From Halothiobacillus diazotrophicus (GTDB taxonomy: Bacteria > Pseudomonadota > Gammaproteobacteria > Halothiobacillales > Halothiobacillaceae), in the NCBI RefSeq assembly GCF_001663815.1, contig NZ_CP016027.1, positions 1,809,001 through 1,873,000 of the forward strand: DNA of 64,000 nt. The letters run 5' to 3'. This document shows, one piece after another, positions 2,258 to 19,658 of this stretch. A model generated the notes under the pieces. The model had not been told where the DNA came from, did no database searches, and saw nothing but the letters and a program-made list of their open reading frames with translations. Within the stretch, counting starts at the first letter, position 1; every line of letters begins with the position of its first letter. The position numbers were made by a program, and so were the translations under genes.

Positions 2258-5200
2258 ATGCCGGACTCCGTCAATGCCCCCGTTGTGCCCCCCGCCTTGA
2301 GCCGCCTTTGGCAGAAACCCACCCTGTGGGCACTGCTGTATGGCGCGCTGATCGCCTATGGCATTTATGCCTTCATGCTCATTCCCGTGGAAGTGCTCCC
2401 CCGCTTCGACTATCCGCAAATCAGCATTGTGACCCATGCACCCGGCGCCACCGCCCAGGAGCTGGAACAGATGATCGCCCGTCCGCTGGAAGCCGAGTTG
2501 CTGGCCTTGCCGGGGCTGGAAGGGCTTCGATCCACCATCGGGCACGGCAGCGTGCAAACCGATGTGCGCTTTGCCGAGAACACCCGCCCCACCCTGGATC
2601 TGCAAACGGTCAACGGGGCGATCGATCGCGCCCGAAGCCACCTGCCGGCCGACGCCCACCCCTACGCCGAGATCATGGGCAATGCCATCAATGAAGTGGC
2701 CGATTACAGCTTGATCCTCCCCCCCGATGTGGCACCGGCCACGGTGCAACGCCAGATTCAGAATCGGATCGTCCCCGCCTTGCGGGCCCTACCGGGCGTG
2801 CAGCGGGTCAACGTGTATGGCGGGGGCGAACAGGCACTCTGGGTTCAACCCGATCTGACTGCCCTGCGCCAACACCACGTTTCGATCGATGCCCTCAAGC
2901 AGGCGCTCCGGCAGCAAGTGATTCTGCAACCGGCCGGGTATCTCACCCTCGGTCATCAGGATGTCCTGATTGAAGCGCGCAACCTGCCCAAAACCATTGC
3001 CGAATTGGCCAAAACCACCGTACCGGGCGCCGCCGGCCCCATCCCGATTTCCGCCCTCGCCCGGATCGTACGCGCGCCGATCCCTACCCACAGTGCCGTG
3101 GCACTGGACGACCACTCCACCATCGCCCTGACGATTTTCAAGCAACCCGGCGCATCCACCCTGCCCGTCACCCAGGCCGTGCAATCCACGCTGGACGCGA
3201 CCCTCGCCCAGTTACCCAAAGGGACGCACTGGCTCAGGGTGTACGATCAGGGGCACCTCGTCCGCGTGATCGGCAACGATCTCACGCGCAATCTGCTGAT
3301 CGGTGCCGTGCTCGCCGTCCTGGTGCTGTTCTGGCTGCTGGGCGGGGGCCGCGGGATCTGGATTCTGGCGGTCAGCATTCCGTTATCCTTATTGCTCGGG
3401 ATTGCCGGGCTGTATGCCGTCGGGCAAAGCCTGAACCTGCTCACCCTCGGCGCGCTGACGGTGGCCGTGGGGTTACTGGCGGACGACGCCATCATCGTGC
3501 TGGAAAGCATCATTCATCGCTGGGAGCAGGGTGACGACCGCTGGGCGGGCATCGGCCGCGGGCTGCGCGACATTGCCAGCCCGGACATCAGCGGCACCTT
3601 GTCTACGGTCGCGGTATTCCTGCCCCTGCTGCTGGTCGGCGGACTGGCCGGGTTGTTTTTCGTCCCCTTTGCCCTGGCGATGACCTTCGCGCTGCTGGCG
3701 TCCCTCGTGGTGTCGCTGACCGTCATCCCCCTGGGGCTTGGGCTGCTGCACGCCGAGCGATACCTCGTTCCCCGTCAGGCCACCGAAATCGCCGCGCCGC
3801 GCCCGGCACAAACCCAGGATTCGCGTCACAGGGGTTGGCGTGACGCCGGCCCCCGGACGGTGGCCGCGCTCTACCGGGCAAACCACCGTATTTTCCGGGC
3901 CGTCAGCCGCCACCCGCGCAGCAGCTTGGCCGCCAGCCTGCTGCTCTTACTGATCAGCCTGGCGGCCATGGGCTGGGTGACCGTGAATTTCCTGCCCCTG
4001 CCGAACGAAGGCGTGATGCTGGAAAGCTTCACCCTGCCGCCGGGCACCTCGCTCACCGACACCGAAGCCACGGTCGCCCAAATGACGGCCCGCCTGCGTC
4101 AGGATCCGGCCGTCCGCCATGTATTCGCCCGAATCGGTTCTGCCGCCAGCACCGCTTATACGGAGCCGGCCTATGCGGGCGAAATTCAGATCGTCCTGCG
4201 TCCGAACATCACGGTGGACGACCTAAACGCGATCGGTATCCGGCTACAAAAAATCAGCGCACTCGATGGGGTGCAAACCGCCATCGACACCCCGACTATC
4301 GAACGCGTCGGCGAGAGCCTGTCCGGCCTGCCGCAACCGTTCGTCATTCGCGTGTATGGGCAAAACATCGACACCCTGCGCGCGATCGCGCAGAAAATCA
4401 CCGCACATCTGCGAAAAAGCGTCCCCGAACTCACCGATGTCTTCAATAACGACGGCTACCCCATCAACCAGTTGACCCTAACCCCCAAGCCCGCCGCCCT
4501 AGCGCTCTATCACACCACCCCCGCCCGCCTGTACGCCCAGCTCAAACCCCTGCTGGCCGGCGAAATCCTCGCCCGGATTCCCGATGGCAATCAGCCGCTC
4601 GCCCTGTATCTGCGCCCGGCGGACAGTCATCACCTGTCGCTCGATCAACTGCGCGATCTGCCCATCCAGCTACAAGGCGCCCCTACGCCCCGCACGATTC
4701 CCCTGGGGCAACTCATGGACATTCGGCTCACCGAAACACCCAATCAGATCCGACATATCGACGGCGCCCGCGCCCTGGACATTCTGGCCACCCCAACCAG
4801 CATCAATAGCCTCTCCACCATCCGGAAGGCCATCGACACCATCCCGCTGCCCAGCGGCTACCGCATCGGCTTCGCCGGCCTCTACCCCGAACTCATCCAT
4901 ACCGGCATTGCCCTGGCCATCGCCGCCCTGCTCGCCTTCGCGCTGATGTTCGGCATCCTGATCCTGCAATTCGACGGCGCGCTTGCCCCCGGCCTGCTCC
5001 TGCTGCAAATCCCGCTCGCCTTCACCGGGGGTGCCCTGGCGCTTAGCTTGAGTGGGGTGGGGCTGAACATCACGGGGTTGATCGCCTTCCTCACCCTGAT
5101 CGGCCTCGGGTTGAATCACGGCATCGTTTTGCTCCATCGCGTGCGGCGCAACGAGCAAGCAGGTCAATCGACGGCCGATGCCGTGGAGGAAGCCATCCGC

Positions 5201-5398
5201 ATCCGCTTCCGCCCCATCCTGCTCACCACCCTCACCGCCATTCTGGGCATGCTCCCCACCGCCCTCGGCTGGGGCCAGGGCGCCGCCCCCGAGCAAGGAC
5301 TCGCCATCGTGATTCTGGGGGGGATTTTGTGGAGCGCCCTGCTCTCGACCAACCTGATTCCGGCCCTGTATCTGCATTACCAAACGGGACGTCGTTAA
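2258..5398 (+). CDS. RND efflux transporter permease subunit
   Basis: Proton-driven inner-membrane pump of the AcrB/HAE superfamily, 1046 aa, which is the usual length. It shows the twelve-helix plan with two large periplasmic loops. The TM4 proton-relay pair is intact in GLLADDAIIVLE. In the matching TM10 segment (GLGLNHGIVLLHR) the lysine of AcrB is replaced by Asn-His, as in several other RND subgroups. The ATG at 2258 gives a 10-base gap from the adaptor; an in-frame ATG at 2219 would overlap the adaptor by 29 bases and is less likely because the pump homology begins after 2258. Drug, metabolite or metal export cannot be separated here. Confidence 0.93.
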   Translation: MPDSVNAPVVPPALSRLWQKPTLWALLYGALIAYGIYAFMLIPVEVLPRFDYPQISIVTHAPGATAQELEQMIARPLEAELLALPGLEGLRSTIGHGSVQTDVRFAENTRPTLDLQTVNGAIDRARSHLPADAHPYAEIMGNAINEVADYSLILPPDVAPATVQRQIQNRIVPALRALPGVQRVNVYGGGEQALWVQPDLTALRQHHVSIDALKQALRQQVILQPAGYLTLGHQDVLIEARNLPKTIAELAKTTVPGAAGPIPISALARIVRAPIPTHSAVALDDHSTIALTIFKQPGASTLPVTQAVQSTLDATLAQLPKGTHWLRVYDQGHLVRVIGNDLTRNLLIGAVLAVLVLFWLLGGGRGIWILAVSIPLSLLLGIAGLYAVGQSLNLLTLGALTVAVGLLADDAIIVLESIIHRWEQGDDRWAGIGRGLRDIASPDISGTLSTVAVFLPLLLVGGLAGLFFVPFALAMTFALLASLVVSLTVIPLGLGLLHAERYLVPRQATEIAAPRPAQTQDSRHRGWRDAGPRTVAALYRANHRIFRAVSRHPRSSLAASLLLLLISLAAMGWVTVNFLPLPNEGVMLESFTLPPGTSLTDTEATVAQMTARLRQDPAVRHVFARIGSAASTAYTEPAYAGEIQIVLRPNITVDDLNAIGIRLQKISALDGVQTAIDTPTIERVGESLSGLPQPFVIRVYGQNIDTLRAIAQKITAHLRKSVPELTDVFNNDGYPINQLTLTPKPAALALYHTTPARLYAQLKPLLAGEILARIPDGNQPLALYLRPADSHHLSLDQLRDLPIQLQGAPTPRTIPLGQLMDIRLTETPNQIRHIDGARALDILATPTSINSLSTIRKAIDTIPLPSGYRIGFAGLYPELIHTGIALAIAALLAFALMFGILILQFDGALAPGLLLLQIPLAFTGGALALSLSGVGLNITGLIAFLTLIGLGLNHGIVLLHRVRRNEQAGQSTADAVEEAIRIRFRPILLTTLTAILGMLPTALGWGQGAAPEQGLAIVILGGILWSALLSTNLIPALYLHYQTGRR

Positions 5399-5860
5399 AT
5401 CTCCCCTGAGCGCCCGACAACGCGCTACGAACGGGGCAAATCCATGTCCAGCCGACGATCGACCGCATGCCAAACCATCCCAGCCCGCACCGTCTCATCG
5501 CCCCAAACGGGTTCGTTGTCCCGCCCGGCCCCGGGCAAAGTCGGCGCATCGAATCAGCGGGGAAATCGCCCCTGATCAAGGCGAAGTTGCGCTTCTGGAG
5601 ATTATCTATGAGCAAATACGGCACGTTATTTCACGCCCGATTAATGGTTAAATAAATAAACCACCATTCACCCAAAAATACCTTCAATCACCATTTATGT
5701 ATGCATGACTAAATAATGAGCCAATTAACAACATGACTGCCATGACATAGAACAAAACAAACCCTGATATACTGTAAAGTCCAGTATCGCCACCTTCAAG
5801 ATAGGTACCAATGCTATATATCACAGGGATATAGCGCACAGTCAAACGAGGTACAAACCG
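5399..5860. other. Intergenic region with an AT-rich patch
   Basis: The first 240 bases are GC-rich and featureless apart from a 15-codon frame at 5608-5655 (ATG with GGAG upstream). From about 5640 to 5850 the composition turns strongly AT-rich, unlike either neighbour. On the minus strand this patch encodes a hydrophobic stretch with TM-like character (about 5839 down to 5684) but without a clear ribosome site. The promoter of the following sensor pair should lie in the patch. Confidence 0.5.
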
Positions 5861-6415
5861 ATGTCCACTTCCAGCCCTTCCCCCGCCCAATTACCCGCCC
5901 AGGATCTGGATATCGCGCTGGAAAGGGATGTTTTCTTGCGGACGCTGATTCGCGAACTCTCCGGCACCCTGCAAGACGTGGTCGGTCTGGACGAGGCATC
6001 CGGATTCGTCAGCGTGGTCGGTCAACGCATTGGGGAGTGGATCGATCATAACTACCGCGAAGCCTGGCAAATTGAACGCATGACAGCCGAGCAGGTCGCC
6101 GAAGTGCTGGTGGATCTGAAAGCCCGGATCAACGGCCAATTCCGACTGGAAGAAAGCACGCCGGAAAAAATGACGTTTTTCAATACCCGCTGCCCGTTCG
6201 AGGAAAAGGTTATCGGACGACCGTCGATGTGCATGATGACCTCAAACGTATTCGGCACCATTGCCGCCGAAAATCTGGGCTACGCCAAGGTCGAATTGCA
6301 AAAAACCATTGCCAACGGCGATGGGTGCTGTCGGGTGGCGGTCCATTTACGCCCAACGACCGAAGCGTTGGCTTGCACGGGACGCGAGTATTTTGGCGAT
6401 GATGAAATCGTTTGA
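5861..6415 (+). CDS. Methanogen output domain 1 (MetOD1)-type protein
   Basis: A 184-aa soluble protein. The C-terminal two thirds match my memory of the MetOD1/V4R-like output domain, found in archaeal and bacterial signalling proteins; the ligand is not known. Four cysteines stand out: C111 in TRCPFEE, C124 in PSMCMMTS and the C156-C157 pair in GDGCCRVAV, which could bind a metal or a redox cofactor. The last 17 bases overlap the following cyclic-di-GMP gene, whose start lies inside this frame, so the two are translationally coupled. I infer that it senses a signal and hands it to the downstream enzyme, a pairing seen by position rather than by known biochemistry. Confidence 0.75.
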
Positions 6416-8486
6416 TCCTGAGCAGTTTTCAGCCATTGGCGACACGCTACCCGATGCCCTGCTCATCCTACAACCGAACGGTGTGATAGAAGCCCTCAAC
6501 CGAGCGGCACGAAAGCTCTTTCCCCGCGCCCAAATCGGAGCGCATCTGGAAAACAGCGTCCAGGAGGATTCCGACGCAGTCGGTCGACTGCTCAAAACCT
6601 GGCGCCGTGCCGCAACACCGACACCGGGCACACTGCACGCGCGTGCCGAACAACCCGGCATGCAAAATCCGCCGCTGCGTTGCGAGGGTTGTGCCGTCGC
6701 CCAAAATGGGGTTCTCGTGCTGCACTGCCGCCCCCGCGAGCAAGCAACCAAGCCTTTTGCCATCCTGAACGAGGAGATCAAAAAGCTCCAGCATGCCAAC
6801 CATGAGCTGCGTCACGATCGCGAGTATCTCGCTCAGCGCGTTGAAGAACGCACCCGCACCATCCGAGAAAGCGAACGCAGGCTGCACGGCATCCTGGAAG
6901 CGCTGGCCGAGGCCGTCATCTGCTTTAGCCATGAGGGTACGGTGCTGAGTTCCAACCCTGCGGCCGACACGCTATTTGGCTACCCGACCAACGCGATGAT
7001 CGGTGTGCAGATGCAAACCCTCCTCCCGGGTGCTTGGCCAGAAGGATCATCGTCACAGCCCCTTCCCAAGCGAAACATGGAATTGAATGCGCAGCACCGA
7101 AGCGGCATGACATTTCCCGTGGAAATCAAGATTCGCGAACTGATCCTGCAAGATGAAACCGTCTTTACGGCGCTCATCAGCGACATCAGCGAACGCAAAG
7201 CCCATCTGCTTCACCTGAAATATCAGGCCGAACACGATGTCCTGACTGGCCTGTACAACCGACGATATTTTCAATCCGCACTCGATCGGCTGGTCGACGA
7301 GGGGGGCACGCTGAACGACGCCGCCCTGCTATTCATCGACCTGGATAACTTCAAATTTGTCAACGACCAATATGGCCATAGCGCGGGCGATCGGGTCTTA
7401 AAGGAAATCTCCGATCTACTTCAGCGTCACACCCGCAACAGCGATCTGTTGGCCCGACTGGGCGGAGACGAGTTTGCCTTGTTGATTTCCGACGCGCGCG
7501 CAGCCGAAGTGGATGCGATCGCCGAACGCATTCGGACCTCCCTTGAGACCTATACCTTCACCTGCAGCGAGGGATACGCCGACATCGGCTGCTCGATCGG
7601 CATCGCCGACCTGCACGAACCTCTGGCGGTGAATTTGGTGCTCGGTCGCGCGGAGTTTGCCTGTCGCCGCGCCAAAAACAGAGGGCGCAACGCCATCTGG
7701 CGCTACACCGATACCGATGAGGAAGCCGCAAAGGCCGGCACCCAGGAAATGGGCTGGTTGAACCGAATCAGACGCGCATTGCGAGACGATCTGTTCGTAC
7801 TGCACATCCAACCCATCCTGGGCACCGACACGAACGATCTCGCCGCCTCGGAAGTACTGATCCGACTCGCCGATCAGGGCGACAGTCTCGTGATGCCCAA
7901 TGCCTTCTTGCCCGCGGCCGAACGCTTTGGCTTGATGCCCGAGATCGATCGCTGGGTTGTTCGACATGCCCTAAGACGGATATCCCATGAAACGGGCGCC
8001 CTATCCATCAACCTATCGGGAACGACACTCGAGCACGGCGGAATAGCCGACTATGTCGCCCAGCAGTGCCAGGAGCACGACGTCGCGACCGAGCGACTCG
8101 TTTTCGAAGTCACGGAAACGGCCGCCATCGCCAATCTCGCCGGCACGGCAATGGAGCTGGGAAAACTCCAGGCACTCGGCTGCCGAACCGCACTCGATGA
8201 TTTTGGCGCGGGGATGTCTTCGTTTGCCTACCTGCGTGAATTGCCGGTGGACTGGGTCAAAATCGATGGACGCTTTGTGCGCGACCTCGCTCAAAACTCG
8301 GTCGACCTTGCCATGGTCAAGGCTATGCATGAAATTGCCCACACGCTCGGCAAGCACACCGTGGCCGAGTTCGTTGAAAATCAGGACACGCTCGTGATCC
8401 TGAAAAAACTCGGCATCAACTTCGTTCAGGGATATCATCTCGGCCGCCCGATGCCACTCGATCGGTCCACCTGCCTCATGACCTAA
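6399..8486 (+). CDS. PAS-GGDEF-EAL cyclic-di-GMP turnover protein
   Basis: A 695-aa cytoplasmic signalling protein starting at the paired ATGs at 6399/6402, inside the end of the MetOD1 gene. In order: a PAS-like segment (about 8-75), a linker with coiled-coil character ([20 protein letters not shown]), a second PAS domain (about 165-270), GGDEF and EAL domains. The GGDEF motif is intact at 355-359 and has the inhibitory RxxD site (RNSD) five residues before it. The EAL signature is EVL at 485-487 and retains the ExLxR form; DDFG, the VKID lysine, AEFVE and QGY are also present, so both synthesis and hydrolysis of c-di-GMP look possible. No membrane segment is seen; input likely comes from the PAS domains and the coupled partner. 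Confidence 0.93.
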
Positions 8487-8817
8487 ACGCGCGTCACATC
8501 CATATCGAGAGCGATACGGCGGCAGACAATCATACTTAGCGATCAGTGCGCCCTGCGCGTTCAGGCCGCACCCGTACTGGTTTCATGTAGAGAACCGGAT
8601 GCCCATTACGACAGGCAATCAAATTTCGCCGATTGGCCGTCGACGGTGCAATGACGGTCTGTGCGCGCCTTTACGCGGTGTTGACTGACACATGAGGGCA
8701 CGCCCCCAGGAATCCGCGGATACCGTCGTCAACCCCCAAGGCGCGACTCGGGGGAGATGCCGCTCAAAATGAACCATGAGAAAAACGCCGAATCCGCGCT
8801 CATTTGGTGTAAGGCGT
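8487..8817. other. Convergent intergenic region, no gene
   Basis: These 331 bases separate two genes that end toward each other. Read on the minus strand, AACGCC at 8812-8817 and GGCGTT near 8784 could pair around a 20-plus-base loop and are followed by a short T-run, a weak candidate terminator for the methionine sulfoxide reductase gene. No other structure was found. Confidence 0.4.
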
Positions 8818-10119
8818 TCATGACTTATCCGGCACGAACTTCAGCACGTCGCCATTGATGCAGTAGCGTTTGCCGGTGGGTGGCGGGCCGTCGTCGAAGA
8901 CGTGTCCGAGGTGGATGCCGGAGCTGGCGCTGATCACCTCGACGCGGTGCATGCCGTAGGAGTTGTCTTCCTTGAGCACGATGGCGCCGGGTACCGGGTT
9001 GAAGAAGCTCGGCCAGCCCGTGCCGCTGTTGAACTTGGTGTCGCTGCGGAACAGCGGGGCGCCGGTGATCGGGTCCACGAAGGTGCCGGGCCGTTTTTCA
9101 TCGAGGTGCGAGCCGGTGAAGGGCCGTTCGGTGCCCTGCTCGAAGGCGATCTTGCGCTGTTCCGGCGTGAGCAGCTGGTAGCCCAGCCATTTCCAGAAGC
9201 GATCCTTGTCGCCGTTGTAACCAGTGTACCGCGACACTTCCTTGCCGTGCTCGAACAGCACGATGGTCGGCGTGGCGAACAGGGCCTTGTCCAGGGTCCA
9301 ACCCTCGGGCGCATGCGGGTTGAGGGTGGCGACGATCGGCACCTCGGACTGCCAGCCGTCCAGCACATCCGCCTTGAACTGCTTGCAGAAGGGGCAGTCC
9401 TTCGCCTCGAACACGATCAGCTGACGGTCGAAATGCAGGTCTTCCGCCTTGAGTTGGGGCGGCTGCGGATTTTCGGCGGCCCCGGCTTGCGGATAGGCGA
9501 CACCCGTGCCGCCCAAGCCGCAATAGCCGTTGGGGTTTTTCTTGAGGTAATCCTGGTGGTATTCCTCGGCCCGGTTGTAGTTCTTGAGCGGCGCGATTTC
9601 GGTGGTGATGGCCGGATAGCCCGCTTTCGTCAGCGCGGCCTGATAGGCGTCGCGGGTCGCGATCGCCACGGCTTTCTGATCCTCGCTGGTGTAATAGATG
9701 GCGCTGCGGTAGTTGCTGCCGACGTCATTCCCCTGGCGGTCGCCCTGGGTGGGATTGTGGTTTTCCCAGAACTTGATGAGCACGGTTTTCAGGCTCACCT
9801 TCGCCGGGTCGAAAGTCACCTTGACCACTTCGGCGTGATTGCGGGCAGTGGTGTCGCCACGACGGCGCGCCCGTTCCTCGCCGAGCACGTCCTCGTAGTC
9901 CACCTTGGGCGCATCGCCACCGGCATAGCCCACTTCGACGTGCACCACGCCGGGAATTTCGGACATGCGTTTTTCCGCACCCCAGAAACAACCCATGCCG
10001 AGCACGATGGACTCGGTTTTCCCGTTCGTCGGCGCGGTATCCGCGGCGGAACCCACAAAGGGTATACCCATCATCAAGACTCCCAACAAGATGCGTAATT
10101 TCTGCGTGATCGCGAACAT
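8818..10119 (-). CDS. msrAB: Periplasmic methionine sulfoxide reductase MsrA-thioredoxin-MsrB fusion
   Basis: Repairs oxidised methionine in exported proteins. The start at 10119 has a GAGGAGG-type site and is followed by a signal peptide (about residues 1-25, ending VGSAA). MsrA comes first with the catalytic Cys44 in MGCFWGAE and a second Cys at 200 (GYCGLG). Next is a thioredoxin-like segment with a CPFC pair at 242-245, then MsrB with [16 protein letters not shown] and catalytic Cys420 in [11 protein letters not shown]. The MsrB part lacks the two CxxC zinc pairs and has Thr where many homologues carry the resolving Cys (NSGTGWP). The MsrA loop that normally reads CSGxTGH is replaced by about ten extra residues ([14 protein letters not shown]). 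Domain order differs from Neisseria PilB, where thioredoxin is first. It follows the sigma/anti-sigma pair by about 140 bases and may share their control. Confidence 0.93.
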
Positions 10120-10257
10120 GGTCGCCTCCTCAGTGTATAGCAGCCGAACCGGTGACTTACCGACCGATCCGGCTTGATTCGTTGTTCTGCTCGAAAGATT
10201 CGTCGGGCGACACGGCGATTTCTTACCGCCAGCCTGCACAGAGATGGATATCGACGG

Positions 10258-11151
10258 TCATTTCGGGTTGATCTGGTTGTAGACCGCCAGTGCCACCCGG
10301 GCCAGTTCGCTCCGGTTCGTGCCGGCGGAAATCGCATAGCCCATGCCGTTGTCGATCCAGTAGAACACGCCGATCGGCCCTTCCTCGGCGAAGTGGAACG
10401 CCGTGTCCTGCTTGTCCTCGCGCTCGCCGGACACGTACAGGGTGAGGCGCTGGCCCTTGGCATCGTGATACATGAACTGGGCGACCGGCCCCTCTGCACC
10501 CGGCAACAGACGTCCGCCGATCAGTTCATAGCCCTGCGCCTGCAGGCTGGGCGGCTTGAGCGTGACGCCGAGGCGCTTGGAGAGCCACTGCACCAGCTGC
10601 GCCTCCTGATCCGCGCCGATCTCGACCGGCCGACGGGTATCCGGGCTGTAGACGGCATGCGCCACGGCCGCGCGCCAGGCGAGTCGATCACCCACGGTGG
10701 TGCGCGCCCGGGCCGGGCCGACCCCTTGGTCGGCGAGCTGGCCTGTCACCGGGCCAGGCGTTCCCCCGACCCGTGCGTTGTCATAGGGCAGGGGCGCAGC
10801 CATCTGGGCGAGCATCGACGGGGCACCCCGCAGCTCCCAGCCCAGCACGCCGCCGAACGCCCCACCCAACACGGCACCCAGCGCAACCCAGGTGACCATG
10901 GCGGCAGCGCGCCATTGCGGCCACCCCGTGCGTTCCCGGACGATCCGGCGCTGAGTGACCGGCACCGGTTCGTCCAGTTCGGCATCGAGCAGGGCCCGCA
11001 GCTGCGCGTTCTGTCGGCGATAGTCGGCCAGACGGGCGGCTTCCTCGGGATGGTCGGCGAGATAGGCCTCGACCTCGGCCCGGCGGGCGGCATCGAGCTG
11101 CTCGTCGACATAGGCCTGAAGATCGGCTTCGGTAAGGGGGGATCGGTTCAT
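10258..11151 (-). CDS. Membrane anti-sigma factor of the adjacent ECF sigma factor
   Basis: A 297-aa protein with the plan of ECF anti-sigma factors. An N-terminal cytoplasmic zinc-finger-like/RsiW-type domain (residues 1-70, YVDEQLDAARRAEVEAYLADHP) is followed by one transmembrane helix (about 83-105, rich in Gly and Ala) and a periplasmic domain of about 190 residues. The HxxxCxxC zinc motif is absent, so it is a zinc-free variant. Its ATG overlaps the TGA of the sigma gene by four bases, the usual arrangement for a co-expressed regulator pair. The periplasmic part presumably senses envelope oxidation; the signal is not known. Confidence 0.85.
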   Translation of the reverse strand: MNRSPLTEADLQAYVDEQLDAARRAEVEAYLADHPEEAARLADYRRQNAQLRALLDAELDEPVPVTQRRIVRERTGWPQWRAAAMVTWVALGAVLGGAFGGVLGWELRGAPSMLAQMAAPLPYDNARVGGTPGPVTGQLADQGVGPARARTTVGDRLAWRAAVAHAVYSPDTRRPVEIGADQEAQLVQWLSKRLGVTLKPPSLQAQGYELIGGRLLPGAEGPVAQFMYHDAKGQRLTLYVSGEREDKQDTAFHFAEEGPIGVFYWIDNGMGYAISAGTNRSELARVALAVYNQINPK

Positions 11152-11726
11152 TTGACTATCTTCATCGAAATCGCCACGGGAGAAGTTCGCCCGGCCCTGG
11201 TGGCGGCCTGAGCGGTTGACAGGGTGCCGGCCGTGGCATCGGCGGGCACCGCGTCGTCCATGAGTTCGCGCAGTCGCGCCCGGGCACGCGACAAGCGGGA
11301 CATCACCGTGCCCTGCGGGATGCCAAGGGTTCGGGCCACGTCCCGATACGACAATTCTTCCACCGCCACCAGCAGGAGCACCGCCCGCTGCTCCTGGGGC
11401 AAACGGCGCAGGGCATCCTGCAGGTTCTGCAGTTCGAGCAGGCCGTCCTGACCGGGCGGCACGGCCGTCTCGAACGCCGCATCGTCCAGGGACTGGGTCG
11501 GCAGCCGGTTGCGGCGGACCTGATCCACATACAGATTGTGCATGATGCCGAACAGCCAGGGCCGCAGATCGCTGCCCCAGCGCCAGAAATGAATCTTGCG
11601 CCAGGCCCGCTCCAGCGTGTCCTGCACGAGGTCGTCCACCCCTGCCTGCTGGCCGCTGCCGAGCAGGACCCGCGCATAGCGGCGCAGGCGCGGGATGCAG
11701 GCTTTGATTTCCCGCTCCAGACTCAT
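11148..11726 (-). CDS. ECF (sigma-70 family) RNA polymerase sigma factor
   Basis: A 192-aa group 4 sigma factor. Region 2 is visible in DDLVQDTLERAWRKIHFW and region 4 in the helix-turn-helix segment SYRDVARTLGIPQGTVMSRL near residues 130-155. It lies 28 bases after the cytochrome/propeller gene and overlaps its anti-sigma gene by four bases. The operon (NTF2-like protein, cytochrome c/propeller protein, sigma, anti-sigma, Msr fusion) suggests that it drives an envelope redox-damage response and its own operon. Assignment to a numbered ECF group is not possible by eye. Confidence 0.93.
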   Translation of the reverse strand: MSLEREIKACIPRLRRYARVLLGSGQQAGVDDLVQDTLERAWRKIHFWRWGSDLRPWLFGIMHNLYVDQVRRNRLPTQSLDDAAFETAVPPGQDGLLELQNLQDALRRLPQEQRAVLLLVAVEELSYRDVARTLGIPQGTVMSRLSRARARLRELMDDAVPADATAGTLSTAQAATRAGRTSPVAISMKIVK

Positions 11727-11754
11727 GGATTTCCCCCGATCGGCCCGCGATTCA

Positions 11755-13077
11755 TCACGAATTCCCCGGCACGGCCACCCAGAACGGGAAGGCCCCGACG
11801 GGAATCTTCTGCGTCACGGTCAGGGTCTTGGCATCGACCACGGCCACGGCGTTTTCCTGGGTCAGTGTGACGTAGATCCAGCGGCTGTCCGCACTGGCGC
11901 GGATACCATGCGGCCCCTTGCCGACCGTGACGTTGCGCACGGACAGATCCCGGGTGTCGATCACCGAGATGACGTTGTCGCCGATGGCGGCCGTCGCCAC
12001 ATAGCGCCCGTTGGGCGCCACGTCGATACCGCCGTGACCGTTGCCGACCGTGATCACCTTTTTCACCGTCCCGTTTTTCAGATCCAGCACCGCCACATGG
12101 TGCACGAAATCACGCACATATGCCGTGTTTTCGTCGGCAGACAGGTCGATGTTGTGCGGCCCCGTGATGCCGGGCACGGGAATGACCCGCGTCATCTTCC
12201 GCGCGCGTGTATCGATCACGCCGATCCCCGCGCCGCCCTGCAGGGTGACGTAGCCGATCCGGCCGTCCCGGGTGAAGCGAACGTTGTGCGGTGCCTTTTC
12301 TACCGGGATCGTATCCACCACCTTCAGTGCCGCGAGATCGATCACGCTGATCTCGTCGGAACCTTCGTTGCTGACATAGGCGAACCGGCCATCCGGCATG
12401 ATCTTCACGCCCTTGGGCGCCTTGCCGACGCGGATCACGGCGCGCTGCTTGCCCGTGGCCGCATCGAACACGTACACGCTGCCGGTGGAAGGGCTGGTCG
12501 CCAGCAGCGTCTTGCCGTCGGGCGTGAGCGCGTTGTAGAGCATGTCCGGCCCACCGGACCAGACGTTCTCGCCGGGGAAGGCCGTCACGGCACCGGCCTT
12601 CTTCAGCGTGACGAACACGGGCTGCGGGAACAGGGCCGGGTTGGCCGGGCCAGTCGGGGCCGTCACGTCCGTCGAAGCGACCGCCGTCGGCATGAAGCCG
12701 GAAAGACTGGCGTAGTAGGCAGCCAGATTGCGGATATCGGCCTCGCTCAACGACGCCGCCATCGCGTTCATGGTCGGGTCCTGACGACTCCCCGTCTTGA
12801 AGGCCATGAGCTGCTTGACGAGATAGGCCTCCTGCTGGCCGGCCAGATTCGGAAACTCGCCACTGAGCCCGATGCCCTGGGCGCCGTGACAACCGGCGCA
12901 GGTCACGGCCTTTTCCTTGCCCAACGTCACGTCGCCGGCCCAGGCGGGCGCAACGAACGACATGGCTGCAAAAGCGCCGAGCATGAGTCGGGGGAAGTGC
13001 GCCCGGAACCCGGACATGGCGGGGCGGGGCTTGAAATCGGTCACAGAATGATCCGTCATGGCATGGAAGGTGTTCAT
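11755..13077 (-). CDS. Cytochrome c with YVTN/cytochrome-d1-like beta-propeller
   Basis: A 440-aa exported protein. A signal sequence lies around residues 28-47 (ending APAWA). A class I cytochrome c domain follows, with the heme site CAGCH at 60-64 and Met103 or Met106 in DPTMNAM as likely axial ligand. Residues from about 150 to the end form a seven-bladed propeller of the YVTN type, with repeats such as YVSNEGSDEISVIDL, YVTLQGGAGIGVID and YVRDFVHHVAVLDL. A GAGGAAAG ribosome site supports the start at 13077. Proteins of this plan are exported electron-transfer or sensory proteins; the heme-to-propeller order resembles nitrite reductase NirS-like proteins, but d1-heme ligands cannot be confirmed. 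It is probably transcribed with the downstream sigma factor. Confidence 0.85.
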   Translation of the reverse strand: MNTFHAMTDHSVTDFKPRPAMSGFRAHFPRLMLGAFAAMSFVAPAWAGDVTLGKEKAVTCAGCHGAQGIGLSGEFPNLAGQQEAYLVKQLMAFKTGSRQDPTMNAMAASLSEADIRNLAAYYASLSGFMPTAVASTDVTAPTGPANPALFPQPVFVTLKKAGAVTAFPGENVWSGGPDMLYNALTPDGKTLLATSPSTGSVYVFDAATGKQRAVIRVGKAPKGVKIMPDGRFAYVSNEGSDEISVIDLAALKVVDTIPVEKAPHNVRFTRDGRIGYVTLQGGAGIGVIDTRARKMTRVIPVPGITGPHNIDLSADENTAYVRDFVHHVAVLDLKNGTVKKVITVGNGHGGIDVAPNGRYVATAAIGDNVISVIDTRDLSVRNVTVGKGPHGIRASADSRWIYVTLTQENAVAVVDAKTLTVTQKIPVGAFPFWVAVPGNS

Positions 13078-13198
13078 CAGGCTTTCCTCGGGATAAACAG
13101 AATGGGCATAAAGGGCGTGGGCGCTCAGAAAATGAAGCGGCGGCGCGGCGATACCCTGATCGACGCCCCGCCTCGGCGACCTATCCGTGCGACCCGGC

Positions 13199-13660
13199 TC
13201 AGTAGCCGCCGCCGACAGCCAGCTTCGGTGCGATTTGCCAGGTTTCGGCGATCAGCTTGTCGCCGCGATAGGTGAGCACGTAACGCACCTTGACCGTCGC
13301 CTTGCCGGCGAACACCACGTTGGCCGTCACGGTCGATCCCTTGGGATTGGCCGCCTCCTCCAGATGCTCGACGGTGACCTTCATTTCGCCCTGGGCCTTG
13401 GCGAATTTCGTCCAGACGCCACGGATCGCCGCCGCACCGGTGTAGTCGCCATCCAGCGGCCCGCCGACCCAGTAGAAACGGCTGTCGTCGGTATAGGCGT
13501 TCGCAATCCGATCCACGTCGCCCGCGCCGATGGCGGCGAAGTGGGCTTTCGCCTCCTCGGCAGGACCGGCAAAGGCGGTGGAAGCGGCCATCAGACCGCC
13601 GAACAGGGCACAGGCCAGGGTGGTACCGCGGATCGCGGTCGATGCAAAAATCGATTTCAT
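13199..13660 (-). CDS. Exported NTF2-like (SnoaL/DUF4440-type) protein
   Basis: A 153-aa protein with a signal peptide of about 28 residues ending in STAFA. The mature part (EEAKAHFAAIGAGDVDRIANAY to the C-terminus) has the cone-shaped NTF2-like pattern shared by SnoaL and DUF4440 proteins; no catalytic residues can be assigned. The start at 13660 is chosen over one five codons earlier because GGGGAG lies seven bases before it. It is the first gene of the stress operon and follows the ECF-type promoter candidate at 13732-13758. The spacing to the cytochrome gene is about 120 bases. Confidence 0.75.
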   Translation of the reverse strand: MKSIFASTAIRGTTLACALFGGLMAASTAFAGPAEEAKAHFAAIGAGDVDRIANAYTDDSRFYWVGGPLDGDYTGAAAIRGVWTKFAKAQGEMKVTVEHLEEAANPKGSTVTANVVFAGKATVKVRYVLTYRGDKLIAETWQIAPKLAVGGGY

Positions 13661-13731
13661 GAATAAGCTCCCCAATGAATGAACGGCCGATGGCCGGAAA
13701 CGCGTCGGATTGAACGCGTCACATGGGGGTG

Positions 13732-13758
13732 TACGAGACGGGGCGGCGGATTATTCCC
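13732..13758 (-). promoter_or_regulatory. Candidate ECF-type promoter of the redox-stress operon
   Basis: On the minus strand GGAATAA (13751-13757, within GGGAATAA) is followed after 15 bases by CGTA (13732-13735, within CGTCTCGTA). This is the general form of ECF-recognised promoters. It lies about 70 bases upstream of the first gene of the operon that encodes the ECF sigma factor, which fits autoregulation. This is inference from pattern only. Confidence 0.5.
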
Positions 13759-13813
13759 GCCGTTGGAAATTTTTTTTGGAACAATTTTTTTTGGGGACCG
13801 CCCCGCGAAGACG

Positions 13814-16375
13814 CTACCGCGGCCGGAACAGTCGCTTGACGCCCTCGAACGGGAGCAGCAGGGAGACGCCCAGGGCGGCCGCGGCCAAGGCCAGATCGCC
13901 GGGCGGCGGTTGGAAGTCGAAGGCGCCCGCCAGACCGGGCAGACCGATGATCGCCGCCAACCCCAGCAGGGTGAGGCCCAGCACCCACAGCGCAACGGGG
14001 GACAAGCCGGAAAACAACCGGTGCAGATCGGCATCGGGCGAACGTGCCGACAGGATCAGCACGGCATTGGCCACCACCACCACGATGAAGGCCAGCGCCC
14101 GGGCCGAGTCGGTCGCCACGCCCAGGGACAACGCCCAGCTATAGCAGGCCAGGGCCGCGACCGTGGTCACGGCGCCCTGCACCACGCTGAGCCCGAGATG
14201 CCGCGCGGCGATCAACGGCTCGGTGGGCGGCCGCGGCGGCTGCGTCATGAGGCCCCGACGGCCCTTTTCAGCCTCGAAGACGATCGAACAGGCCGGGTCG
14301 ATCACGAGTTCGAGAAAGGCGATGTGGATCGGCATGAGGATCATCGGCCAGCCGAACAGCACCGGCACGATCGACAGGCCGATGATGGGCATGTGTACAG
14401 CCACGGTGTAGACGAGCGCCTGACGGAGATTGGCGAAGATGCGCCGCCCCAGACGGATGGCGGCGACAATGGCGGTGAAATCGTCTTCGAGCAGCACCAG
14501 CGATGCAGCCTCGCGGGCGACGTCCGTGCCGCGCCGCCCCATGGCGATACCGATATGCGCCGCCTTCAGCGCCGGGGCGTCGTTCACGCCGTCGCCCGTC
14601 ATGGCGACCACTTCCCGATCGCGCTTCAGGGCGGACACGATCATCAGCTTCTGGGCCGGCGTCACCCGGGCGAACACATCCGTTTCGGCCACCCGGGCCG
14701 CCAGCGTGGCGGAATCCATGGCCGCCACCGCCTCACCGGTCGCAACGGACGCCGCATCGATCCCGGCCTGTTCGGCAATGGCCCGCGCCGTGCCGGGATG
14801 ATCGCCGGTGATCATCACCACGCGAATGCCCGCCCGATGGCATTCCTCGATGGCGGCGGGCACCTCCGGGCGCAGGGGATCGGCCAGGCCGATCAACCCG
14901 ACCAGCGCGAAGGGGAAATCGTGCTGCCGATCCGGGAACGGTTGCCCGCTCGGATGGGTGGACTTGGCCACCGCCAGCACGCGCCAGCCCCGCGCAGCCA
15001 TGGCATCGGCCGACTGGCGCAACGCTTCGTGGGCGATTGGGTCGAGATGACACAGATCCGCGATCGCCTCCGGCGCGCCCTTGGCGGCCACCACGTCATG
15101 CGGCAGCGAACCATCCCGCCAGAGATGGGACATAGCCGGCAGCGCCGGGGACAACTCGTATTCCCGGGTCAGCGCCCAGTCGGGATGCAAATGCTCGGTA
15201 TCGGCGAGGTAATCCTGCGCGAAGCGGTGAAAGGCCTGCTCCATCGGATCGCTGGGGTCGATCTCGCTGGCGAGCACCGCGTATTCCATCAGCTCGTGGT
15301 AGTGCTCCGGCAAATCCCGCGCCGCGAGATCGTCCGCGACCAGCAACTGACCCTCGACGGAGAGGGCCGCCAGCGCCATGCGGTTGCGCGTGAGCGTGCC
15401 CGTCTTGTCGACGCAGAGCACCGTGGTTTCGCCAAGGGTTTCGATGGCGTTGAGCCGCCGCGTCAGCACCTGATGCGCCGCGATCCGGCGGGCGCCGAGG
15501 GCGAAGAACACGATCATGATGACCGGGAATTCCTGGGGCAGGATGCCCATGGCCAGGGTGATGCCCGCGAGCAGGCCGTGCAGGGCGTCGCCACGCAATG
15601 CCCAGAACAGGCCGGCGAGGAACAGGCTTAACCCGGCCCCGATCAGCGCGAGGCGCCGGGTGAGACGGGCAATCTCGGTGCGCAGGGGGGAGGCCTCGAC
15701 ACCGATGGCTTGCAGGGATTTTCCGATCCGCCCCAGCTCGGTCTGCGCGCCGATAGTCGTCACGCACATCAGGCCCTGACCGCGCACGATCATCGTGCCG
15801 GCGAACACCCGGTCTCGGGCCGCATCCGTCGGATCGTCCGAATCGGCAGGAAACTTCGCCACCGGCTCCGACTCGCCCGTCAGCAGGGATTCGTCGGCAG
15901 CCAGCTCGTGGGCCTCGACCACGAACCCGTCGGCCGGCACGCGATCGCCCTCCGTGAGCATCAGCACGTCCTCGCGCACCACCTCCGCCCCGGCGATCCG
16001 CACCGGCACGCCATCGCGGATCGCCAGCGCCCGCGGGCTGGACAGCGTGCGCAGCATGTCCAGCGCATGTTCGGTCCGCCGCTCCTGCAGGATCGTCACG
16101 CCCATGATGATGCCCACGAACCCCAGCAGAATGAGTGCCTCGTGGACGTCGCCCATCAGCAGATAGATGGCGCCGGCGCCCAGCAGCAGCAGAAACATGG
16201 GTTCGCGGATCACCTCGCCGGCGATGGCCCACAGCGTGCGCCGCCGCTCCTGACCCAGCTCGTTGAGGCCCTCGGCGGCCAAGCGCTCGGCGGCCGCCGC
16301 CGAGGTCAATCCGTGCAATTCCGGGGAGGCATTATCAATCATGGGATGCTCGGGATGGTCAATTCGAAGGGTCAT
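13814..16375 (-). CDS. Cation-translocating P-type ATPase
   Basis: An 853-aa inner-membrane ion pump. The phosphorylation motif DKTGTLT starts at Asp323, the actuator loop TGES is present (LLTGESEPV), and the hinge TGDGVNDAPALK is intact. The helix-4 motif that defines ion choice reads MGILPQEFPVI in place of the Ca-pump PEGLP, so the ion remains open; P2-like Ca or Mn pumps and other HAD-IC type ATPases are candidates. No N-terminal CxxC metal-binding domain is seen, which argues against heavy-metal P1B pumps. The start at 16375 (GGGG upstream) is preferred; ATG at 16342 is an alternative. It reads toward the redox-stress operon and the 150-base gap contains two T8 tracts. Confidence 0.9.
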   Translation of the reverse strand: MTLRIDHPEHPMIDNASPELHGLTSAAAAERLAAEGLNELGQERRRTLWAIAGEVIREPMFLLLLGAGAIYLLMGDVHEALILLGFVGIIMGVTILQERRTEHALDMLRTLSSPRALAIRDGVPVRIAGAEVVREDVLMLTEGDRVPADGFVVEAHELAADESLLTGESEPVAKFPADSDDPTDAARDRVFAGTMIVRGQGLMCVTTIGAQTELGRIGKSLQAIGVEASPLRTEIARLTRRLALIGAGLSLFLAGLFWALRGDALHGLLAGITLAMGILPQEFPVIMIVFFALGARRIAAHQVLTRRLNAIETLGETTVLCVDKTGTLTRNRMALAALSVEGQLLVADDLAARDLPEHYHELMEYAVLASEIDPSDPMEQAFHRFAQDYLADTEHLHPDWALTREYELSPALPAMSHLWRDGSLPHDVVAAKGAPEAIADLCHLDPIAHEALRQSADAMAARGWRVLAVAKSTHPSGQPFPDRQHDFPFALVGLIGLADPLRPEVPAAIEECHRAGIRVVMITGDHPGTARAIAEQAGIDAASVATGEAVAAMDSATLAARVAETDVFARVTPAQKLMIVSALKRDREVVAMTGDGVNDAPALKAAHIGIAMGRRGTDVAREAASLVLLEDDFTAIVAAIRLGRRIFANLRQALVYTVAVHMPIIGLSIVPVLFGWPMILMPIHIAFLELVIDPACSIVFEAEKGRRGLMTQPPRPPTEPLIAARHLGLSVVQGAVTTVAALACYSWALSLGVATDSARALAFIVVVVANAVLILSARSPDADLHRLFSGLSPVALWVLGLTLLGLAAIIGLPGLAGAFDFQPPPGDLALAAAALGVSLLLPFEGVKRLFRPR

Positions 16376-16490
16376 CGTACAACCCCAACCATCATACGCC
16401 GACGATCGTCCGCAGAAGGCGCGTCGCTCAGTCAGGAGCCCTGGATCGCGTACTGGCTCGTCCGCTCTCATCCCTTGGGCAGCGCCAGAC

Positions 16491-16517
16491 AAAAAACCCC
16501 GCCGGCTTTCGGCGGGG
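16491..16517 (-). terminator. Rho-independent terminator of the 16552-17178 gene
   Basis: Read on the minus strand, CCCCGCC and GGCGGGG (16497-16517) form a strong GC stem with a seven-base loop and are followed by TTTTTT (16491-16496). It lies 35 bases after the stop codon and would shield the P-type ATPase gene from read-through. Confidence 0.85.
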
Positions 16518-16551
16518 TTCTAAGCAACCTCTCAGGTCAGAGAGACCAGGC

Positions 16552-17178
16552 TCAGGCGTAGGTGTTGACGGCCTGTTGTCGGTTCTGAACCGGCAATTGA
16601 CTGGACAGATTAGACAGGAAATTGCTCAGGTTGGCGCCGGATACGCCCATTGCATCAGCCAGTGTCTGGAAGCTCGATTGCAGGTTGGACAGGTTCCCGG
16701 TGGTCGCAATGCCCCCCGATGCCGAGTTCGTGGCGGTCGTTGTCGCGGAGGACGATGCAAGCTGGCTCATCAGGCTCTGCAGGTCGGACGCCATGTTCAT
16801 GCGCTGATGTCCGCCATGGCGACCGGCGCCCCGTGCGCGCCCCGTACTGCCATCCGTATCACCGTCACTATCCGTCGAGGACGCCCCGCTACCGGAACTG
16901 CCGGTAGCGCCATTCTGGGCATGCAACGCCTGAAAGAGCGATTGCATGAACGCACCCATTGCCTGTTGCTGCGTCGGATTGAGGCTTGCGGCGGTGGTCG
17001 TGCCCGTTGGGTCCGATCCCGCCGTGCCGCTTCCGGAAAGGGCGTTGAGGATGACCCCCTGAAACCCGCCCGCCGACGGGGTGCCGCCGGAAGCGACCGA
17101 GGCGGTCCCGAGAGGTTGGCTCGGGTTGTTGACTTGAGACCACCAGTAGCTGTTCGTCGAAATGGCATTGACGTTCAT
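16552..17178 (-). CDS. Unknown low-complexity protein with an Asp-rich calcium-loop-like motif
   Basis: A 208-aa protein that I do not recognise. It is rich in Ser, Thr, Gly, Ala and Gln and has no signal peptide or membrane segment. DSDGDTDGS at 103-111 looks like the loop of an EF-hand or dockerin-type calcium site. Two similar amphipathic stretches follow: SDLQSLMSQLASS (131-143) and NLSNLQSSFQTLADAMGVSG (162-181), the latter with an echo in ANLSNFLSNLSSQL (182-195). The start at 17178 is supported by AGGAG eight bases upstream. It has its own strong terminator, so it is likely a free-standing transcript. A secreted or surface-associated structural role is only a guess. Confidence 0.7.
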   Translation of the reverse strand: MNVNAISTNSYWWSQVNNPSQPLGTASVASGGTPSAGGFQGVILNALSGSGTAGSDPTGTTTAASLNPTQQQAMGAFMQSLFQALHAQNGATGSSGSGASSTDSDGDTDGSTGRARGAGRHGGHQRMNMASDLQSLMSQLASSSATTTATNSASGGIATTGNLSNLQSSFQTLADAMGVSGANLSNFLSNLSSQLPVQNRQQAVNTYA

Positions 17179-17384
17179 GATCGGGACTCCTGATAACCGG
17201 GGATGATCGGCGGAAAAACACGCCACATGAATTCTGTCTACTGATAATTAGCAGACAGATCTATTTGAGCATTCTGACAGAAACTCGGCAGAAATCAGAC
17301 ACCACACGATGGAGAAACGTCGGCAAATTGTGAACGGGGTGTATACCGGACCCGACTGTCCCAGACCAAAGCGCCAGACAATCC

Positions 17385-19658
17385 CTAGTATTCCCGGACC
17401 TCGTCGCCCATGGCGCGGACAAAGACCTCGAACGCCTCCGGCGGCATGGGCTTGCTATAGAGGTAGCCCTGCGCTTCGTCACACCCCTGAGCCCGGAGGA
17501 ACTCCAGCTGGGCCGGGGTTTCCACTCCTTCGGCGAGCGACTGCAGATTCAGGGCGCGGGCCATCTGCACGATGGCGCTGACGATCGCGCGATCCTCGGG
17601 ATCGCGGCCGATGTCCCGAACGAACGACTGATCGATCTTCAATCGGTCGACCTTGAATTTCTTCAGGTAGGAGAGGCTCGAATAGCCCGTACCGAAATCG
17701 TCGATCGCGAGCTTGATGCCCAGATCCTTGAGGCGATTGATCAGCGACAGCATGATCTCCATGTCATGCAGCAGCACCGACTCGGTCAGTTCGATCTCGA
17801 GAAAGCGCGGGGCAAGCCCGCTTTCCGACAGCGCCGTCAGCACGGATTGCTCGAAGTCTCCGCGACGGAATTGCACGGCGGAGATATTGACCGCCACCAC
17901 CAGCGGCGGCAGACCGGCACGTTGCCAGGCCACCGCCTGACGGCAGGCCTCGCGCAGCACCCAGTCGCCGATCTCCACGATCAACCCGGTCTGCTCGGCG
18001 ATCGCGATGAAGTCGTTGGGCGGCACCAGCCCCTCCTCGGGATGGTGCCAACGGATCAGCGCTTCCGCACCGACCAGGGCACCGGTCCGCAGATCGATCT
18101 GTGGCTGGTAATGCAGCGCGAACTCGCGCGCCCGAACCGCCGCACGAAGACTGTGCGCGATCCGCAGGTGCGCCAGGCTGTCCGTATTGATCTGCTCCGT
18201 GAAGAAGCGATAGGTGTTTCGCCCGGCCTCCTTGGCGTGATACATCGCCTTGTCGGCACGCTTCAGAAGGGTTTCGAACTGATCCCCGTCATCCGGATAC
18301 ACCGCCACGCCGATCGAACAGGTCAGCGACAGCGGACGGCCATCGATATCCAACGGGCTGGCAACCTGGGCAAGGACCTCAATCAGCACGTGATTGATGG
18401 CGTCGACACTGTCGATATTGGTCAGGGCGATCAAAAACGCATCGCCGCCGAGACGACTGATGCTGTCGGTTTCGGGAATGCACCCCTTCAACCGCAACGC
18501 CACCGCGCGCAACAACGTATCCCCGGCGGAATGGCCGAGCGAGTCGTTCAGCAATTTGAAGTTGTCGAGATCCAGATCCAGCAACGCAACCCGCCGATGG
18601 TCGCGGGCCGCATTCGCAATCGCATTCTCAAGCCGATCCTGGAACAACATGCGGTTCGGCAGGCCGGTAAGTGCATCGTGAGAAGACAGATACTGGATCT
18701 GGGCTTCCGTCGATTTACGCCGACTGATATCGCTAAACGTGGCGATGTAGTGGGTCGTCGTGCCCTCGGTATCGTTGACGGCGGAAATATTGAGCCACTC
18801 GGGAAACACCTCGCCATTCTTCCGACGTTTCCAGACTTCGCCCTGCCAGCGGCCGAACCGTCGGACGTTCGCCCACAGCCCCGAATAAAAAGTTTCGTCG
18901 TGCTCATCAGAGCGGAGCATCGGGAGCGTCTGACCGATGACCTCTTCGGCCGAATAGCCATACATCCGGGTAAACGTCATATTCACGCTGAGGATATGCA
19001 AACCGGTATCGACGACCATGAACCCCTCTTCGCTGCCGGCTATCGCCGTTTCGAACAGGCGCAACGATGCCTCGACCTTATTTCGCGCAAGCACGATGCC
19101 GATGATCGACGCGCCGATTTCCAGCAGTTTTTGGTGAAAGGGACTGGGCGAGCGGTGCTCGAAACTCGACAGGGCAAACGTGCCCACGATCTTGCGTTCG
19201 GCGGAATAGACGGGGATGGACCAGCAGGAGCACAGATTGAAATCGTAAGCGATCTGGCGAAGATCCTCCCAACGCGGGTCAGTGAAAGTATTACTCACGA
19301 ACTGCGGCACGGCGGTGAAAAGCACATTCCCGCAGGAGCCGGCGCCCGGTCCCGGCCGCAAGCCATTCAGTCGGGCCACGCCCTCGGGCGGAATGTTCGG
19401 CGCGGCGTAGACGTTCAGGAGCTCATCCTTCTCGTCCAGCAACATGACCGAACCGACGGAATTGGGCAGCAATTGCTCCGCCAACCGGCAAACCTGATCC
19501 AGGATCGCCCGGTGATCGGCCCCCTGAGCGACCGAGGTCAGAACCGTCTGCTGCAGTTGCAGGATCTGCTCCTGCTCCTCGCGCGACAGTGCGCTGTACT
19601 CTCCGTTGGTGGGATACCCGAACTCCGCGGACATCGGCATTCCGCGCATCTCGCTCAT
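17385..19658 (-). CDS. GAF-PAS-GGDEF(degenerate)-EAL protein, likely c-di-GMP phosphodiesterase
   Basis: A 757-aa cytoplasmic sensor enzyme. A GAF domain (about 35-185, with the pattern SCWSIPVYSAERKIVGTFAL) is followed by a PAS domain (about 190-310), a GGDEF-like domain and an EAL domain. The GGDEF site reads GGDAF at 404-408, which should abolish cyclase activity; such domains often act as GTP sensors. The EAL signature (AEALIRW, 531-537) is intact, with DDFGTGYSS, KIDQSFVRD, AEGVE and QGY also present. The start at 19658 (GGTGAG upstream) is preferred because the upstream reading frame has no domain homology; another ATG lies at 19634. It is the second c-di-GMP protein of the window and probably opposes the one at 6399-8486. 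Confidence 0.92.
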   Translation of the reverse strand: MSEMRGMPMSAEFGYPTNGEYSALSREEQEQILQLQQTVLTSVAQGADHRAILDQVCRLAEQLLPNSVGSVMLLDEKDELLNVYAAPNIPPEGVARLNGLRPGPGAGSCGNVLFTAVPQFVSNTFTDPRWEDLRQIAYDFNLCSCWSIPVYSAERKIVGTFALSSFEHRSPSPFHQKLLEIGASIIGIVLARNKVEASLRLFETAIAGSEEGFMVVDTGLHILSVNMTFTRMYGYSAEEVIGQTLPMLRSDEHDETFYSGLWANVRRFGRWQGEVWKRRKNGEVFPEWLNISAVNDTEGTTTHYIATFSDISRRKSTEAQIQYLSSHDALTGLPNRMLFQDRLENAIANAARDHRRVALLDLDLDNFKLLNDSLGHSAGDTLLRAVALRLKGCIPETDSISRLGGDAFLIALTNIDSVDAINHVLIEVLAQVASPLDIDGRPLSLTCSIGVAVYPDDGDQFETLLKRADKAMYHAKEAGRNTYRFFTEQINTDSLAHLRIAHSLRAAVRAREFALHYQPQIDLRTGALVGAEALIRWHHPEEGLVPPNDFIAIAEQTGLIVEIGDWVLREACRQAVAWQRAGLPPLVVAVNISAVQFRRGDFEQSVLTALSESGLAPRFLEIELTESVLLHDMEIMLSLINRLKDLGIKLAIDDFGTGYSSLSYLKKFKVDRLKIDQSFVRDIGRDPEDRAIVSAIVQMARALNLQSLAEGVETPAQLEFLRAQGCDEAQGYLYSKPMPPEAFEVFVRAMGDEVREY

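Follow-up and report, generated by a model that had tools for sequence, protein, structure and literature searches.

Which signal does an extracytoplasmic function (ECF) sigma factor answer when its gene lies between those of an exported cytochrome c/propeller protein and a methionine sulfoxide reductase? We asked this of a five-gene block from Halothiobacillus diazotrophicus, contained in a 64,000-nucleotide stretch of DNA (the window; positions 1809001–1873000 of the single 2.9-Mb contig). The genes lie in succession on the minus strand (13660–8818, window numbering) and encode an NTF2-like protein, a cytochrome c fused to a YVTN propeller, the sigma factor, a membrane anti-sigma factor, and a fusion of MsrA, thioredoxin (Trx), and MsrB. 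A first-pass annotation had described this one-strand arrangement behind an ECF-type promoter candidate, and we recovered all five open reading frames with their expected domains together with the promoter motif (Table 1); ribosome-binding-site-like sequences ahead of the reading frames were judged by eye. The interpretation given there holds in part. The switch itself is of a known type, and what is new is its grouping with the cytochrome/propeller protein and MsrA-Trx-MsrB. We propose, at what we judge to be about an even chance, that the block is an autoregulated ECF26 (RpoE1-like) envelope-stress operon with a sulfite/thionate signal, in which Msr would repair methionine oxidized by sulfite-derived radicals.

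The Block Starts with a Conserved Promoter Motif

The motif GGAATAA-N15-CGTA ahead of the block has identically placed counterparts, unchanged in motif and spacing, in each of the four sigma-bearing family relatives (L032, L033, L034, and L035). In L032 it opens the block, and in L035 it precedes the NTF2 gene; L033 and L034 carry it twice, once for sigma and once for the periplasmic-binding protein gene that diverges from sigma. All five family loci thus carry a GGAAT/CGT-type promoter on their own operon, each with CGTA at -10, in agreement with the earlier view that an ECF-type promoter starts the block. A genome-wide search, as the first-pass annotation had suggested, returned the block promoter as the sole GGAATAA-N15-CGTA site in the 2.9-Mb genome. 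The relaxed pattern GGAATAAN14-16CGTM has seven sites, the six further ones being five with N15 and CGTC and one with N14 and CGTA; the reversed pattern, used as a control, has one match. The rpoE4 promoter of Sinorhizobium meliloti is GGAATAA-N15-CGTC (PMC6180224), with the same -35 element and spacing as in the block, and a consensus covering S. meliloti and Starkeya novella has GGAAT at -35 and CGTC at -10 (PMC6527743).

Genes for small exported proteins that are DsrE-like by eye (no Pfam match) lie downstream of two of the CGTC sites, the first of which is divergent from a second ECF pair (L146 6555–13359; genome positions 1712554–1719358). The anti-sigma factor of this second pair may end in a DsrE-like domain (again by eye, with no Pfam match). 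Transcribed away from the pair are repeated genes for small exported DsrE-like and for porin-like proteins, which have GGAATAA-N15-CGTC promoters. A DUF302 protein gene (L054 1567–2118) lies downstream of a GGAATAA-N15-CGTC site in the same genome. The remaining sites are ahead of or within genes with no evident link, the N14 CGTA site preceding a FimV-like gene (by eye).

The Sigma/Anti-sigma Pair Is ECF26-like

The window sigma factor shares 45% sequence identity over 154 amino acids with a sigma factor from S. meliloti pSymA (L145) and 43% over 158 amino acids with a Lipoprotein_15-linked S. meliloti sigma factor (L153). The three have PRK12511 as their common best NCBIfam model, each scoring below its cut-off. 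The gene order in L153 is Lipoprotein_15 protein, sigma, anti-sigma, and an order of this kind is reported for S. meliloti RpoE1 (PMC3511301, PMC6180224). We infer that L153 is RpoE1 and L145 is RpoE6 on the basis of gene order and replicon rather than a record. The sigma tree, built from 76 rows, places the window sigma with those of the four family relatives (support 96/88); these then join five ECF rows (support 91/96), one from G131 and four plasmid-borne, in Massilia, Methylibium, Acidovorax, and a Comamonadaceae strain. DUF305 and propeller genes are found near all five of these neighboring ECF genes and a sulfite-oxidase or molybdopterin-oxidoreductase gene near four. We call the pair and its promoter ECF26-like, a careful term for a resemblance based on tree position and sequence identity, not on an ECF classifier.

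The anti-sigma factor, whose start overlaps the sigma end by ATGA, contains no cysteine among its 297 amino acids and is zinc-free, as had been noted. With its single hydrophobic peak near residues 85–103 it has the ECF26 layout of an N-terminal domain, one membrane helix, and a periplasmic C-terminal domain. Its overall identity to the anti-sigma factor of the S. meliloti locus L153 is 30%, and homologues occur in 39 of the 369 class-sample genomes (E 1e-10, own genome counted). No Pfam family matched at E 0.01, and zf-HC2 appeared only below the cut-off, in the window protein (E 0.14) and in five of seven relatives (best 0.038). In a low-confidence model, the C-terminal domain superimposes on the RseB/MucB fold (Z 6.8–7.7, root mean square deviation 3.2–3.4 over 85–92 residues). 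Profile searches and a profile comparison gave no match to RseB/MucB, and we take the likeness as a fold hint only.

TABLE 1. Features of the five-gene block and its promoter regions (window coordinates)
Feature	Position	Strand	Evidence
ECF26-like promoter candidate GGAATAA-N15-CGTA, ahead of block	13757–13732	-	Motif and spacing conserved in relatives
Exported NTF2/SnoaL-like protein, 153 amino acids	13660–13199	-	Pfam SnoaL_2 2e-11
Exported cytochrome c + YVTN propeller	13077–11755	-	Cytochrom_C 1e-7, TIGR02276 1e-34
CAGCH heme c motif, residues 60–64, sole CXXCH of the cytochrome/propeller protein	12886–12900	-	
ECF sigma factor, ECF26/RpoE1-like	11726–11148	-	
Membrane anti-sigma factor, cysteine-free, conserved C-terminal domain	11151–10258	-	
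-10-like element TATACACT before the msr ribosome-binding site, no convincing -35	10132–10139	-	Shared with L136
Exported MsrA-Trx(CPFC)-MsrB fusion, 433 amino acids	10119–8818	-	PMSR 4e-52, Thioredoxin_2 2e-8, SelR 7e-42

The pair and its promoter match the published ECF26 type, which makes the earlier statement that no such system has been described too strong. The S. meliloti ECF26 systems (RpoE1 and RpoE4-EcfR; PMC3511301, PMC6180224) share with the block a downstream one-helix anti-sigma factor with a C-terminal domain and the GGAATAA-N15-CGT promoter, and in RpoE1 a gene for a small exported protein also lies ahead of sigma. Unlike them, the block has the cytochrome/propeller and MsrA-Trx-MsrB genes, and we found no sorT operon here. 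Starkeya novella, likewise a sulfur oxidizer, has the related systems SigE and RpoE1; RpoE1 is reported to switch on the promoter ahead of a DUF305 gene, and this promoter likely also drives a YVTN-propeller gene 12 bp away (PMC6527743). The block differs in that its propeller is fused to cytochrome c, Msr is added, and no DUF305 gene was found nearby (best tblastn match in 5001–18000, E 0.39). Our literature search, confined to one collection of papers, returned no paper on a Halothiobacillus ECF sigma factor or methionine sulfoxide reductase, none joining an ECF sigma factor with cytochrome P460, and none linking ECF sigma factor, sulfite, cytochrome, and beta-propeller.

Conservation of the Neighborhood

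A search of 25 family genomes (24 relatives and the own genome, E below 1e-50) located the sigma factor in five (G000, G005, G007, G011, and G015). G005 is assigned to the genus of the own genome, and the closest sigma found is encoded by Halothiobacillus sp. LH_M7. Sigma, anti-sigma, and, directly downstream, msr adjoin in four of these (G000, G005, G011, and G015), with surroundings that differ between the two genera, and the link of Msr to the sigma pair thus extends beyond one genome. All five genes are present only in G000 and G005, with a single relative locus, L032; a P-type ATPase gene upstream of the block is common to the window and L032 (83% identical). The conserved neighborhood expected by the first-pass annotation therefore exists for the full set in this one relative and is absent from the 38 class loci and the other family loci examined. 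NTF2 homologues lie upstream of sigma in L032 and L035, SBP_bac_11 genes are found in L033–L035, and L033 and L034 also have relatives of the S. meliloti Lipoprotein_15 gene; the latter two gene types resemble published RpoE1 targets, compared by description. We redid the neighbor counts for the 38 class loci by tblastn because longest-ORF gene calls hid some genes, and found an NTF2 gene in six, a propeller with DUF305 in two, and a block-type msr in none.

A cytochrome P460 gene lies upstream of sigma in 13 of the 38 class loci (L037, L094, L095, L100, L101, L103, L104, L105, L109, L115, L117, L121, and L122) and downstream in a fourteenth. In L105 an NTF2 gene stands between the P460 gene and sigma, and for L037 the P460 identity was confirmed by Pfam.

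The Cytochrome c/Propeller Protein

Homologues of the propeller occur in 19 of the 369 class-sample genomes (E 1e-60, own genome counted). We examined 22 propeller loci (the window, L032, Marinobacter, and 19 others), six of which encode an N-terminal CXXCH. An ECF gene lies within about 1.6 kb of all six heme-fused propellers versus 5 of 16 heme-less ones, a comparison with no random-gene control. Together with the P460 genes upstream of sigma, this shows that heme-protein genes recur beside such sigma factors, in support of that part of the earlier interpretation. The Marinobacter salarius locus is a row of genes for a propeller, a sigma factor, a zinc-finger anti-sigma factor, a sulfite oxidase, and a cytochrome c, and in G079 the propeller adjoins an ECF gene and an Oxidored_molyb gene. 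Since the sigma factors of Marinobacter, G079, G156, and G273 form a separate branch of the sigma tree, the propeller is paired with more than one ECF kind.

Four histidines (His-264, His-308, His-348, and His-390) are all kept in 21 of the 22 propellers, the exception being L199; three DUF305-linked propellers keep two of the four. Their spacing of 44, 40, and 42 residues indicates that there is probably one histidine per propeller blade. A structure model is good for the propeller part and not for the cytochrome part. NosZ has seven such histidines. We rejected a lactonase-type nitrous oxide reductase (L-NosZ), as the protein has only four of them and reaches 104 bits of the 700-bit NCBIfam cut-off.

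The Methionine Sulfoxide Reductase

Of the 27 family genomes searched, 17 have block-type msr (two of them as partial matches), including all ten genomes of the genus, in eight of which it lies away from the block position. The window protein has a signal-peptide-like N terminus and, by Pfam, the domain order MsrA, Trx, MsrB. PilB-type proteins have the thioredoxin domain ahead of MsrA, and we rejected this type because Trx lies between MsrA and MsrB here. Fusions whose MsrA and MsrB parts flank a CXXC were also seen in four distant class members (L127, L128, L131, and L132). The gap between the anti-sigma and msr genes measures 138 bp, and no minus-strand terminator-like site was found in it. 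GGCTGCTATACACTGAGG is common to the window and L136 upstream of msr.

A Proposed Sulfite/Thionate Stress Operon and Its Alternatives

We propose the following mechanism. In the resting state, the membrane anti-sigma factor would hold sigma. A periplasmic signal, most likely sulfite, thionate, or a derived radical from sulfur oxidation, would act on the anti-sigma C-terminal domain and free sigma, which would then transcribe its own operon from GGAATAA-N15-CGTA: the NTF2-like protein, the cytochrome c/four-histidine propeller as a putative periplasmic redox protein, sigma, and anti-sigma. Read-through would raise MsrA-Trx-MsrB, which may repair methionine oxidized by sulfite-derived radicals. 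Halothiobacillus makes sulfite and thionates, and aerobic sulfite oxidation forms radicals and turns methionine into its sulfoxide, which would explain why msr is kept beside such a sigma factor. ECF26-type systems are reported to respond to sulfite and, in the case of Starkeya RpoE1, to tetrathionate (PMC6527743); the hypochlorite or nitrite induction envisaged by the first-pass annotation finds no support in these reports. In favor of the proposal are the -35 element and spacing shared with the rpoE4 promoter, the identity to the two S. meliloti sigma factors, the grouping with ECF genes near DUF305, propeller, and sulfite-oxidase-type genes, the genes in L033–L035 that resemble RpoE1 targets, the propellers beside ECF and sulfite-oxidase-type genes in Marinobacter salarius and G079, the sigma, anti-sigma, msr order in two genera, and the lack of a terminator-like site before msr.

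Several observations weigh against this proposal. The 55-row set that unites the window sigma with both S. meliloti sigma factors has a support of only 80/92 and includes several long branches. The -10 element of the block, CGTA, differs in its last base from the CGTC of the S. meliloti/Starkeya consensus, and a GGAATA-N16-CGT motif is present in only 3 of the 38 class loci. S. meliloti reporters gave no response to added sulfite in the account of PMC3511301; sulfite induction is described in a later study (PMC6527743). A SorA-type enzyme was found in none of the 27 family genomes, 22 of which have remote homologues (26–29% identity). In the own genome we found no SorA-type target, as its match to the sulfite dehydrogenase SorA is only a remote homologue (26% identical); this remote molybdoenzyme may be SoxC. 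Further points concern msr, which stands apart from sigma in 13 of the 17 msr-bearing family genomes (12 lack sigma, and G007 has both, apart from each other). In G007 its neighbors on the upstream side are RND and DUF3240 genes; in L032, homologues of these are convergent and just downstream of msr. This common adjacency suggests that msr may have held the RND/DUF3240 place before joining the sigma block. We found no ECF motif in the 138-bp gap and no GGAA-N17-20-CGT within 300 bp upstream at the 14 msr loci examined, so that sigma control of msr rests on unproven read-through.

These msr data fit a reading in which sigma drives only the transcript from NTF2 through cytochrome/propeller and sigma to anti-sigma, and msr is a bystander on its own housekeeping promoter. 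We regard this as a serious contender, if not the outcome we expect. It gains from the -10-like TATACACT before msr in the window and L136 and from similar elements in other Halothiobacillus loci, where inspection by eye gave TATACT, TACACT, or TATAGT five times (L137, L138, L139, L141, and L143) and a weaker one in L144. The region before msr has, however, no sigma-70 match with both hexamers, and sigma and msr adjoin in two genera with different surroundings, though in the msr tree the G011/G015 and G000/G005 copies are not sisters. The first-pass annotation had named an unrelated msr promoter as fatal to its idea: msr has no ECF motif of its own and may indeed have its own promoter. The adjacency of msr to sigma in four of the five sigma-bearing genomes would suit an oxidant response (to hypochlorite, chlorite, or peroxide) with the anti-sigma factor as the oxidation sensor and Msr as the chief product, on the pattern of ECF16 SigF/NrsF and of Neisseria and Haemophilus; we consider it unlikely. 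Neisseria SigE/MseR ties an ECF sigma factor of another group to MsrAB and has a short anti-sigma factor with a zinc motif. Haemophilus RpoE2/HrsE-MsrAB also links an ECF sigma factor to MsrAB, as here, but belongs to another ECF group, has a short anti-sigma factor, and has a sigma-dependent promoter of msrAB's own (PMC7907618). The ECF16 SigF/NrsF systems of Azospira, Brucella, Caulobacter, and Bradyrhizobium control methionine sulfoxide repair, like the block, but with a six-helix anti-sigma factor and a TGTAAC-N17-CGAA promoter; Brucella has both MsrPQ and a Met-rich peptide, Azospira the latter (PMC8315932). Although msr genes are thus members of several regulons responsive to hypochlorous acid or reactive oxygen species (PMC7907618, PMC8315932), neither MsrPQ nor a Met-rich peptide is encoded by the block's five genes, whose promoter is GGAATAA-N15-CGTA. 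We rejected both the short or zinc-motif type of anti-sigma factor (297 amino acids, one hydrophobic peak, and no cysteine here) and the DUF1109 six-helix type (one peak and no Pfam family at E 0.01).

The cytochrome c/four-histidine propeller might itself sense redox changes and pass the signal to the anti-sigma factor, an idea of the first-pass annotation that is consistent with the 6/6 versus 5/16 association with ECF genes (read with the limit given above) and with cytochrome P460 taking the place ahead of sigma in 13/38 class loci. Three sigma-bearing family relatives lack the cytochrome/propeller, however, its gene lies behind the ECF-type promoter as expected of a target, and the Starkeya YVTN gene is a likely target as well (PMC6527743); we therefore find a sensor role doubtful. 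An improbable but wider view is that exported cytochrome c-propellers with an axial four-histidine site, possibly a metal or heme center, form a family that supplies ECF switches in sulfur-metabolizing bacteria with a redox input or a dedicated enzyme and was wired to methionine sulfoxide repair in Halothiobacillus, linking sulfite chemistry to protein repair.

In the published systems compared here, ECF-Msr links concern hypochlorite or reactive oxygen (PMC7907618, PMC8315932). If the operon answers sulfite or thionates as we propose, methionine oxidation would count as a component of sulfite stress for sulfur oxidizers, and the heme-propeller family that recurs beside ECF sigma genes would gain a testable role.

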